A DNA stretch of 57,289 bases. Source: Bacteroidales bacterium (GTDB lineage Bacteria; Bacteroidota; Bacteroidia; Bacteroidales; UBA932). Under the pieces are notes generated by a model. The model searched no databases, had not been told where the DNA came from, and saw only the letters and a list, made by a program, of their open reading frames with translations. This document shows positions 23,909-27,481 of the stretch, piece by piece. The DNA lies in NCBI GenBank assembly GCA_028691975.1, contig JAQUYF010000005.1:1-57289 (forward strand), given 5' to 3'. The stretch's first letter is position 1. The number at the start of each line of letters is the position of its first letter. A program made the translations under genes and the position numbers.

Positions 23909-25072
23909 TTAGTTCTTGATGGCGGCAATCTCGGTTACTGCCTGTATGGCGGTGTCGATCTCTTCCTCAGTGGTAAAGGCTCCGATGCTCATGCGGACAG
24001 TACCGTGCATGTCAAATGTGCCGATGCCTTCGTGTACTTTAGGTGCGCATTGCAGACCTGTGCGGACTGCTATGTTGTAGTCAACGTCAAGCATAATTCC
24101 TACGTCTCCGGCTTCAAACCCGTTGATATTGAAGCTCAGTACGGGATTGTGATTTTCCGTAGATTCTGCGCAATAAGTGGTAACACCTTTGATCTGCTGC
24201 AAAGCTTTGCGGAGCTTATCCCACAATGCCATTTCACGGCTGTGGATATTTTCAAGGCCATTTTCGTTAAGCCACTTTACACCTGCATTAAGACCTGCAA
24301 CTCCAAGGAGGTTGAGTGTACCATACTCAAGGCGATACGGATACTCTTCAAGGTGACCGGGGTATGCCGAGCGAACACCTGTTCCGCCTGCGCGTGTCTT
24401 ATTGATGGTAATGCCTTCTCTAACGTATGAGCCGCCTATTCCGGTAGGGCCCATCAGACATTTGTGTCCTGTAAAGCAGTAAACGTCAATGTTGTACGCC
24501 TGCATATCCATCGGATTGCAACCTGCGCCCTGACTGCCGTCAACTACGAAGATAAGTCCGTTTTCTTTGCAAATCTTACCGACTGCCGCAAGTGGCTGGA
24601 CTGTTCCTATTACGTTGGAACATTGAGTCATAATCACAAATTTGGTGTTCGGACGGATTGCCTTGCGAACATCCTCCGGATCGATATATCCGTGTTTGTC
24701 GAAAGGAAGGTAGGTAACATCAATCGTACCTGCCTCTTTGTGCTGGTATAGTGGTCTGAGGACAGAGTTATGCTCCAACATAGTGGTAATCACGTGAGCG
24801 CCCGGCTCTACAAGACCATTGATGATGAGGTTTAGAGAGTCTGTGGCGTTGTAGCTGAAAGTAAGGCGGTTATAATCTTCACCACCATTAAACAGCTTAG
24901 TCAGAAGTTTTCTGGTATTAGTTACTACTTCTTCGGTTTCGATGGCAGCATCAAAGCCTGAACGTCCCGGATTGACTCCGTGTTTACGGTAAAATGTATT
25001 CATGAAATCATAAACAGACTCAGGTTTCGGGAAACTTGTTGCCGAATTGTCAAGATAAATAAGTTTGCTCAT
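23909..25072 (-). CDS. Class-V aminotransferase, cysteine desulfurase family (TIGR01977/EF2568-like)
   Basis: The 387-residue PLP enzyme begins IYLDNSATSFPKPESV and has the Schiff-base lysine in CFTGHKCLMGPTGIGG. A Cys lies in the C-terminal loop VRTGLQCAPKVHEGIGT, the pattern I associate with the EF2568 branch of cysteine desulfurases. Members remove sulfur from cysteine as a persulfide. It is the fourth gene of a tight operon, 20 bp after the iron-sulfur protein, and so would supply sulfur to the DsrC protein encoded first. That partnership is inferred from gene order only. Confidence 0.88.
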   Translation of the reverse strand: MSKLIYLDNSATSFPKPESVYDFMNTFYRKHGVNPGRSGFDAAIETEEVVTNTRKLLTKLFNGGEDYNRLTFSYNATDSLNLIINGLVEPGAHVITTMLEHNSVLRPLYQHKEAGTIDVTYLPFDKHGYIDPEDVRKAIRPNTKFVIMTQCSNVIGTVQPLAAVGKICKENGLIFVVDGSQGAGCNPMDMQAYNIDVYCFTGHKCLMGPTGIGGSYVREGITINKTRAGGTGVRSAYPGHLEEYPYRLEYGTLNLLGVAGLNAGVKWLNENGLENIHSREMALWDKLRKALQQIKGVTTYCAESTENHNPVLSFNINGFEAGDVGIMLDVDYNIAVRTGLQCAPKVHEGIGTFDMHGTVRMSIGAFTTEEEIDTAIQAVTEIAAIKN

Positions 25073-25092
25073 ATTATATAGTATTGATTATT

Positions 25093-26487
25093 CTAAAACA
25101 GGGTTGGGTCTTTTTCGGCCGGCTCCGAAGAGTGGCCCGCGGCAGAAGTCGCAGTATCATTCGCAGGATCCGGTTTGGCAGCCGCAGGAGTGATGACAAG
25201 TGCATCCGCCACGATCTCGGCAACAGTCTTGATGGTGACTCCCAACTTGTAGGTATGGTTAAGTTGCATCAGCTGATCGACACAATTGTGGCAAGGGGTG
25301 ATGACAATCTTGGCTCCGGTAGCGCGAATCTGATTGGCCTTAATCTCTCCGATTTTAAGCCTGCGTTCATTATATTCACTCATTGCAAGTGCTCCTCCGC
25401 CTCCTCCGCAGCAGAAATTGTCATTTCCGTGAGGGGTCATTTCCACGAAGTTGGAGACACAGGACTTGACTACGAAGCGCATTTCCTGAAGTAAACCTCC
25501 GTTCCGAACGAGGTTGCACGGATCGTGCAGGGTGCAGAGAGTCGTGTTCAGACTCTTGTCCACTTTTATCCTGCCGCTGCGAATGTATTCGGCCATCAGT
25601 TCGAGGACTGTCTCCATCTCGAAGTCGTAAGGGTGTTTGATCAGGTTCGGACCCTCCCAGCGGGAAGCTCTCGAGCCGTGACCGCACTCTCCGAGGATGA
25701 GCTGTTTTGCACCCAGGTGGTGCACTTCATCATACAGATACTGTGCAATTTGCGCAGCATGCGCGTTATTGCCGCTGAAGTATCCGTAGTTGGTCACATC
25801 ATAATATTTGGAGGATAGTGTCCAGCTTTCGCCTGCGGCATAAAATACTTTCGCCATGGCGGAAATGGAGAGCGGGAAGAACTTCGGCTCTCGCGGGTTA
25901 AGCGTGTACATTATCTTCTTATCGTGCTGATCTACAGGAATATTGGCCTTTTCGTCATTCATCTCGTCCTGAAGCTCCTCTTCCATCCATTTCAGAGTGT
26001 CCAAAAACTCCTCTGTAGGGATAGCCATATTGTTGCCTGTATTGAGGGCGGCATCCACCGTTGCCTGAAGCGTTTTGGGCACAAGGCCCATTGCTGCAAG
26101 CATCTCTCTTCCTTTCTTAACGATATATGCCACATCCACTCCTATGGAGCAGTGCTTTACGCAGCGACCGCACATTGTACATCCTCCGTAGAGGCAGTCC
26201 ACCATCTCTTCAGCCATCTTCGCATCAAGATCTTTAGCTCTGAACAGGGCAGGAAAGTATTTCCCTTCAGGGGTAAAGTACCTTCGGTAAATGGAACTTA
26301 CAAGGTCCACTTTGCGCCCGGGAATGAATTTAGGATCCTTGTAAGCTATGTAATACATACAGGAAGTAGCGCAAAGTCCGCATTTTACGCAGGCATTAAG
26401 ATGGGTCTGAAACTTGCTGTCGGCAGCAAGAGTGGCTCTCATCACATCAAGAGCCGCTTTTCTCTGTTCTTTTGTTATATTGTCCAT
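25093..26487 (-). CDS. HdrD/DsrK-like iron-sulfur protein (CCG domains)
   Basis: The 464-residue protein has an N-terminal 2x[4Fe-4S] ferredoxin module: Cys33/36/39/43 (CVKCGLCATSC) and Cys103/106/109/113 (CTMCGRCVKHC). The C-terminal half has a complete CCG motif, with LHDPCN, FCCGGGGGA and the final TPCHNC (Cys399, Cys402). In HdrD and DsrK this CCG site binds a special [4Fe-4S] cluster that reduces disulfides. It sits 13 bp after the gene for a cytochrome-b-like subunit, matching HdrDE/DsrMK organisation. A low-complexity Pro/Ala-rich tail follows residue about 432. Substrate is most likely the DsrC encoded upstream. Confidence 0.9.
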   Translation of the reverse strand: MDNITKEQRKAALDVMRATLAADSKFQTHLNACVKCGLCATSCMYYIAYKDPKFIPGRKVDLVSSIYRRYFTPEGKYFPALFRAKDLDAKMAEEMVDCLYGGCTMCGRCVKHCSIGVDVAYIVKKGREMLAAMGLVPKTLQATVDAALNTGNNMAIPTEEFLDTLKWMEEELQDEMNDEKANIPVDQHDKKIMYTLNPREPKFFPLSISAMAKVFYAAGESWTLSSKYYDVTNYGYFSGNNAHAAQIAQYLYDEVHHLGAKQLILGECGHGSRASRWEGPNLIKHPYDFEMETVLELMAEYIRSGRIKVDKSLNTTLCTLHDPCNLVRNGGLLQEMRFVVKSCVSNFVEMTPHGNDNFCCGGGGGALAMSEYNERRLKIGEIKANQIRATGAKIVITPCHNCVDQLMQLNHTYKLGVTIKTVAEIVADALVITPAAAKPDPANDTATSAAGHSSEPAEKDPTLF

Positions 26488-26500
26488 ATCCGTGCCGAAT

Positions 26501-27160
26501 TTACGCCTTCTTAGGAGGCCAGGTATTGCGCCATCCGTAGAAGAATCCTAAGTGACAGCGTGCCGAAAAGTAGTAAAGCAGGTGTCTGATTTTACCAAGA
26601 GGCATCCAGAAAAAGAGCACTGCTGCCACAATAAAATAGACATTCAGCAAAACGGATGCGTGGGCCGCAAGAGGTCCGGCCTGCGAGAGCATTAGCAACA
26701 GCCCTGCTATCTGAAAGAGTGTACAGATGCCGTTGGAAAAGTAGTCATCGAAACAGGAGAGGGAACGTAAATTTTTGCTGAAAGCACGCTTAACAAAAAT
26801 AGAAAAGCCGCATATTGAGCTGATTGTCAGGCATGCGGCTAAGATCCACGCTAAAATTGCAGGAGTGTATAAGTTACAACAGCAACAGATTATCACCCAA
26901 ACAAACATCAGCAGTGAGAGAAAATTGCCCAAATGGAAAATGATGCCGGCAGTGTAGGTCGGAAGGTGCATATATGCAGATTCCTTAGCGTTAGGCATCA
27001 TCGCTCCGGTGTTGGAGTAGAGAATACCCTTGGCGGTGTTGCCCGACTTCTGGGAGAGGTCTTCAGGCTTGCCTTTCCTTATCAGTGTGAGAAGATAAGA
27101 TAAAAACAGCACAAAGCACCATACAAGTGCTACAATTGATATCCAAGCAGTTACTGTCAT
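26501..27160 (-). CDS. Cytochrome-b-like membrane subunit (HdrE/DsrM/NarI-like)
   Basis: The 219-residue protein has about five to six hydrophobic helices and His residues placed as in the b-haem subunits of nitrate reductase gamma and HdrE. Two are in the stretch AYMHLPTYTAGIIFHLGNF (His65, His76). The C-terminal signature PLGKIRHLLYYFSARCHLGFF is typical of the family. It would anchor the iron-sulfur partner to the membrane and take electrons from menaquinol. It is 18 bp after dsrC and 13 bp before the HdrD-like gene. DsrM proteins are often larger; this is at the small end, so both haems need not be present. Confidence 0.82.
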   Translation of the reverse strand: MTVTAWISIVALVWCFVLFLSYLLTLIRKGKPEDLSQKSGNTAKGILYSNTGAMMPNAKESAYMHLPTYTAGIIFHLGNFLSLLMFVWVIICCCCNLYTPAILAWILAACLTISSICGFSIFVKRAFSKNLRSLSCFDDYFSNGICTLFQIAGLLLMLSQAGPLAAHASVLLNVYFIVAAVLFFWMPLGKIRHLLYYFSARCHLGFFYGWRNTWPPKKA

Positions 27161-27178
27161 GATATTGGAGCGTGCTGG

Positions 27179-27481
27179 TTATACGCAACCGTCAGGCTTT
27201 GGAAGACCGGCAATACGGCAGGCTCCACGCGCCGGTCCCAAAGGAAATAACTCATATATCTCTCTGAGCTTCAGACCTGTCTCCTGGCAAATAGTTCTTA
27301 CCATTGGAGCATTTCCCTTCTCTTCAAAATTTTTACGAATGACTCTGACAACGGCCCAGTGCTTATCGGTCATTTCTCCTATGCCGTCAGCCTCTGCAAA
27401 CACCTTTGCCACTTCGTCGTTCCATAATGCGGGATTGGTAAGGAACCCATCACCATCTACTTCAAAATCTTTTATATCCAT
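27179..27481 (-). CDS. dsrC: DsrC/TusE-family sulfur-carrier protein
   Basis: The 100-residue protein matches DsrC/TusE in length and in the C-terminal arm, which reads GACRIAGLPKPDGCV. It contains both cysteines of true DsrC: the penultimate Cys99 and Cys88, eleven residues earlier. TusE-type proteins usually have only the penultimate Cys, so this one should be able to form the intramolecular disulfide or trisulfide used in DsrC electron transfer. It starts an operon with a membrane cytochrome-like subunit, an HdrD/DsrK-like reductase and a cysteine desulfurase. DsrAB sulfite reductase is not in the window. Confidence 0.9.
   Translation of the reverse strand: MDIKDFEVDGDGFLTNPALWNDEVAKVFAEADGIGEMTDKHWAVVRVIRKNFEEKGNAPMVRTICQETGLKLREIYELFPLGPARGACRIAGLPKPDGCV

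Follow-up and report, generated by a model that had tools for sequence, protein, structure and literature searches.

In sulfite reducers the membrane complex DsrMK(JOP) reduces the trisulfide of DsrC (PMC10504309, PMC13232883), and the HmcEF and TmcBC complexes of sulfate reducers have been proposed as DsrC partners as well (PMC6470260). A DsrC-family protein is fed by a cysteine desulfurase in the TusE/TusBCD/MnmA relay of E. coli, and a cytochrome b is combined with CCG iron-sulfur domains both in HdrDE of methanogens, which acts on a disulfide, and in EtfD of mycobacteria, where a NarI-like cytochrome b is joined to Fer4 and CCG domains and linked to menaquinone. Here a set of four genes, encoding a two-cysteine DsrC, a putative NarI-type cytochrome b, a CCG iron-sulfur protein and a cysteine desulfurase, is described from a Bacteroidales bacterium. 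The genes lie within a stretch of 57,289 nucleotides (GenBank assembly GCA_028691975.1, contig JAQUYF010000005.1, positions 1 to 57,289), the whole of which is referred to below as the window.

A two-cysteine DsrC, accompanied by a cytochrome b in the membrane and by a CCG protein potentially able to reduce it, is common to the Bacteroidales set and DsrC-DsrMK(JOP). The Bacteroidales set, however, occurs without DsrAB, has a desulfurase in the operon, and its CCG protein scores under the DsrK cut-off. HmcEF and TmcBC are the best-scoring families for both membrane components, although the scores are far under the curated cut-offs and the described complexes include neither a desulfurase nor dsrC. 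The E. coli Tus relay lacks a membrane pair, whereas in Bacteroidales MnmA is independent of the set and the inner DsrC cysteine is kept. EtfD differs in being one fused chain with an electron transfer flavoprotein as partner and no DsrC; HdrDE differs in that the Bacteroidales CCG protein conserves one complete CCG motif and its substrate would be a protein disulfide. The open-licence literature yielded no published account in which a Bacteroidales dsrC goes together with a CCG/cytochrome pair plus a desulfurase; in the first-pass annotation of the window, too, such a sulfur relay is one not known to be described.

The four-part set is well supported. The interpretation given in that annotation is borne out in part: a dedicated set of DsrC, a quinone-linked CCG protein and a desulfurase without DsrAB gains strong support from gene order, from co-occurrence across genomes and from a search for sulfite reductase domains. 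As to function, there is about an even chance that the genes form a dedicated sulfur-redox module, in which sulfur from cysteine is placed on DsrC by the desulfurase, a quinol-linked CCG complex reduces the oxidised DsrC, and H2S is released.

Gene order and co-occurrence in Bacteroidales

The four genes follow one another on the minus strand in the order dsrC (27179-27481), the gene of the putative NarI-type cytochrome b (26501-27160; 219 residues), the gene of the HmcF/TmcB/DsrK-type iron-sulfur protein (25093-26487; 464 residues) and csd, the gene of the cysteine desulfurase (23909-25072), a class-V pyridoxal phosphate enzyme. The open reading frames bear out the four genes, the positions and the intergenic gaps of 18, 13 and 20 bp that had first been reported, as well as Cys88 and Cys99 on the DsrC arm. 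The description of the middle genes as a "DsrMK/HdrDE-like pair" held in part: a cytochrome/CCG pair is present, but its scores lie nearer to HmcEF/TmcBC than to DsrMK and below every curated cut-off.

When 84,980 species genomes were scanned with an alignment of the CCG protein, 230 relatives emerged, and the locus counts given here rest on the best 80 of them. Nearly all of these 80 carry a Bacteroidales or Bacteroidetes label in their records, and one is labelled Ignavibacteriae. Among them are the cultured Butyricimonas synergistica DSM 23225, which has the whole four-gene operon, a second isolate of Butyricimonas, and Bacteroidales bacterium CF, whose genome is complete. All four genes were found in 43 of the 80 loci, and in 42 of those 43 csd lies immediately 3' of the CCG gene; the order, which the first-pass annotation had suggested checking in relatives, is to this extent conserved.

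Co-occurrence was followed in 296 Bacteroidales genomes (at least 95% complete, plus the window's own). Most carriers are metagenome assemblies, and the presence of the cytochrome was judged within the fetched loci rather than by a genome-wide search. Operon-type DsrC occurs in 35 of these genomes, the CCG protein in 34 and the desulfurase in 36, with all three in 34, and the DsrC carriers span 22 families. There are two near-misses: in G517 dsrC adjoins csd and the contig ends about 420 bp upstream, and in G681 csd stands at the contig end. Among 101 relatives, the nine genomes with operon-type DsrC are exactly those with the CCG protein and those with the desulfurase (above 640 bits). The genes are retained together even when they are dispersed: dsrC-cytochrome, the CCG gene and csd occupy three separate loci in G061, G552, G618 and G744, and csd is located elsewhere in the genome in G554, G668, G706, G634 and G705, is convergent in G519, G593 and G648, and lies upstream of dsrC in G558. 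Of all the arguments for a joint function, this retention of unlinked genes is the strongest.

The NIR_SIR domain (PF01077) was found in none of the 39 DsrC carrier genomes, including that of the single-contig Bacteroidales bacterium CF and the window's own, which is 87% complete; the same search was positive in 11 of 14 control genomes. A hidden sulfite reductase was also rejected for the genomes with either operon-type DsrC or the desulfurase (0 of 40, with positive controls found). DsrAB and other sulfite reductases of the NIR_SIR type are thus excluded at the sensitivity of the search, haem-only enzymes of the MccA kind lying outside it. The Dsr pathway, taken as DsrAB in the genome, was thus detected in none of the 39 carriers, which speaks against the earlier concern that DsrAB might be encoded elsewhere.

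The four proteins and their surroundings

The window DsrC is placed in its family by PF04358 (118.5 bits against a cut-off of 24.9) and by TIGR03342 (TusE/DsrC/DsvC; 98.1 against 53.5), and it lies below the cut-off of the TusE equivalog NF008562 (65 against 191). Its arm, GACRIAGLPKPDGCV, holds Cys88 and Cys99, and both are kept in 67 of 67 operon-type homologues covering the position, as in a redox-type DsrC. A third cysteine, Cys65, is conserved in at least 90% of homologues. The inner arm cysteine has been described as confined to organisms with DsrAB, barring Methylococcaceae, Marinobacter and Lawsonia, and as mostly replaced by Ala, Ser or Thr elsewhere (PMC3397948). Operon-type DsrC departs from this rule across 22 families, alongside a CCG protein, and the simplest interpretation would be that this cysteine is retained because oxidised DsrC would be reduced by that protein.

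With PF04358, a second DsrC class of Bacteroidales reaches no more than about 103 bits and the operon-type class at least 111. Loci of the second class also encode a type III sulfide:quinone reductase (SQR), DUF1641 and DsrE2. Of 40 DsrC sequences of this class, two retain the inner cysteine and 38 have Ser, Thr, Ala or Met in its place. These loci (L025, L027-L030 and L221-L260), in which the SQR was matched by a selenoprotein-subtype model, probably represent a sulfide-oxidation module.

The cytochrome has no Pfam match and no sequence relative in the PDB, and its matches to HmcE (NF045716; 29 bits against a cut-off of 275) and TmcC (NF045723; 23 against 240) are weak. Its AlphaFold2 model, with five transmembrane helices and a C-terminal helix, was built from 57 sequences (predicted local distance difference test, pLDDT, 93.1) and used in place of a nine-sequence model (pLDDT 76). 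The top structural matches of the model (Z 10.6-11.0) were NarI chains (11.0) and mycobacterial EtfD (10.7; root-mean-square deviation 3.7 across 190 residues); unrelated helical bundles score Z 8.8 or less, and the fold match alone is modest for a helical protein. Foldseek returned no match for the model at E <= 0.001. His76 and His193 are kept in 67 of 67 sequences, His65 in 65 of 67, and His203 is not invariant; with only the first two invariant, one b haem is the safer guess.

In the CCG protein, matched by PF02754 and Fer4, the Fer4 motif occurs twice and a complete CCG motif once (Cys324, 359, 360, 399 and 402), where two complete CCG motifs would define HdrD. The motif cysteines are conserved in 94-95 of 95 homologues, and Cys268 is also among the conserved cysteines. 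Its scores fall short of the NCBIfam cut-offs for HmcF (NF045711; 298 against 750 bits), TmcB (NF045724; 289 against 735) and DsrK (NF045796; 250 against 400). The sole PDB relative found by the CCG alignment was EtfD (9ojn, E 1.2e-12); chains of DsrK, HmcF and HdrD were absent from its PDB matches, which is uninformative on their folds. In EtfD the Fer4 and CCG domains are fused to a membrane domain of five helices; the b haem of EtfD has two histidine ligands, and a putative menaquinone is found 4-5 A away from it (PMC13083937). The cytochrome and the CCG protein each match this menaquinone-linked cytochrome b/CCG protein, and this counts in favour of a quinol-linked module.

The desulfurase is of the TIGR01977 type (418 bits against a cut-off of 377), and its Lys204 and Cys342 are invariant in the 56 of 56 homologues with letters at those positions. 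An additional SufS-like desulfurase was present in five of five genomes examined, one of them without DsrC, and MnmA was found both in carriers and in non-carriers lacking DsrC; since both are independent of DsrC, the operon desulfurase is an extra one. E. coli IscS, given cysteine, persulfurated the penultimate cysteine of A. vinosum DsrC (PMC3397948), thus making direct loading of DsrC by a desulfurase chemically plausible. In G648 a single TGA interrupts the csd frame (L205:5833-6996) at some distance from the catalytic cysteine.

Flanking genes differ between lineages, and the four genes are therefore taken as the unit. In the window recQ lies divergently at one side and pckA is next at the other, both outside the unit, and no promoter or terminator signals above chance were detected. 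In at least 13 loci a small Cys-rich open reading frame of about 80 residues (CPN..C...YC...CKR...CPDF.LPD) stands directly upstream of dsrC (among them L070:5786-6025, L024:8556, L099:5828 and L215:5791). It has no Pfam or NCBIfam match, is absent from the window, and is possibly a fifth part of the set. In G513 (L218:3-2567), DsrE2, TusA and FlpD/HdrA-like genes follow the operon after csd on the same strand; the addition of TusA and DsrE2 there counts in favour of the sulfur-redox module.

Proposed sulfur transfer and direction of electron flow

In the proposed module, the desulfurase would draw sulfane sulfur from L-cysteine, leaving alanine, and place it on the penultimate Cys99 of DsrC, directly or via a small carrier. 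Attack by Cys88 would then release H2S and leave DsrC oxidised, as a disulfide or possibly a trisulfide. Electrons from menaquinol would enter at the cytochrome b and travel by way of haem b and the [4Fe-4S] clusters in the CCG protein as far as its CCG cluster, which would re-reduce DsrC, the net reaction being cysteine + quinol -> alanine + H2S + quinone. For this scheme we infer the loading of DsrC by the operon desulfurase, the direction of electron flow and the sulfide product, for which experiments on other DsrC systems lend support (PMC3397948, PMC10504309), as well as any conservation of energy. The reductive direction, modelled on how sulfite reduction ends, with DsrMK(JOP) acting on the DsrC trisulfide, appears the most likely. 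The potential of the cysteine/alanine plus H2S couple lies near -0.1 V, close to that of sulfite/sulfide (from textbook formation energies), so that quinol could drive cysteine desulfuration at low sulfide. A more tentative extension, possible but rather doubtful, is that the set supports cysteine respiration. Menaquinol would then drive the reductive desulfuration of cysteine, yielding alanine and H2S by way of a disulfide or trisulfide cycle of DsrC, and energy would be conserved; in Bacteroidales of gut, rumen and digesters the process would provide a terminal sink for electrons and a source of sulfide that has been overlooked.

Several points weigh against a reductive module. Five of the 80 loci have dsrC, cytochrome and CCG gene without an adjacent csd; the Fisher p below 1e-41 for the association of DsrC, CCG protein and desulfurase ignores relatedness, as it includes no species-tree correction; and a two-haem redox loop is uncertain, with only two cytochrome histidines invariant in all 67 sequences. 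Furthermore, EtfD works in the opposite direction, reducing menaquinone (PMC13083937). As EtfD is the nearest solved relative, the main rival is a reversed flow, in which the CCG protein would oxidise a DsrC thiol or persulfide and electrons would reach menaquinone, with cysteine or sulfide sulfur as the donor. The genes of G513 mentioned above are of the sulfur-oxidation kind and fit such a flow. However, no enzyme to process the sulfur further was found, NIR_SIR domains being absent from the 39 carriers, and the SQR-linked DsrC class, without the inner cysteine, suits sulfide oxidation better. The oxidative direction is considered unlikely.

DsrC might instead work like TusE and supply sulfur from the desulfurase for tRNA, Fe-S or cofactor synthesis, with the membrane pair only resetting or regulating it. 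DsrC/TusE with a desulfurase is the known route of tRNA thiolation, and E. coli TusE takes sulfur for MnmA (PMC3397948). Housekeeping thiolation does not explain the set, however, because MnmA and the SufS-like desulfurase are also found in non-carriers. Use of this DsrC by TusBCD-MnmA, which the first-pass annotation had named as a possible refutation, is likewise poorly matched by the genomes: DsrE-family domains, kin of the TusB/C/D-type proteins, are missing or weakly matched in the carriers checked, the TusE equivalog score is low, and both arm cysteines are kept. A biosynthetic relay is therefore also regarded as rather improbable. Two weak DsrE-domain matches (G000:C8:14901-15059 and G000:C86:8540-8695) lie inside open frames 805 and 859 residues long, which may encode fusion proteins.

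It has been suggested that DsrC interacts with several Hdr-like complexes (PMC6470260), and DsrC could sense the state of the quinone or thiol pool and regulate other functions; this redox switch would leave unexplained the dedicated desulfurase that accompanies DsrC even when unlinked, and is judged quite improbable. A selenium role, with a selenocysteine lyase and DsrC as carrier of selenide, has a very small probability: SclA (NF040779) is the second-best model of the desulfurase, but its 320 bits miss the cut-off of 525, whereas the TIGR01977 cut-off is reached. Chance neighbours spread as a block by horizontal transfer, with no joint function, would fit a set that is patchy and often linked, but are strongly disfavoured and hardly credible, the genes being co-retained in unlinked and inverted arrangements with flanks that differ by lineage.

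Implications for sulfur metabolism in Bacteroidales

Among the Bacteroidales families sampled, 22 have a two-cysteine DsrC with its own reductase-like membrane pair and a desulfurase, and no sulfite reductase was found there. The operon in the cultured B. synergistica strain makes the quinol-linked, cysteine-fed module directly testable. If this module is real, the terminal DsrC step can use cysteine sulfur, and dsrC or dsrMK-like genes alone would be poor markers of sulfite reduction. Gut and digester bacteria would then own a membrane-linked route to sulfide that escapes surveys of DsrAB.

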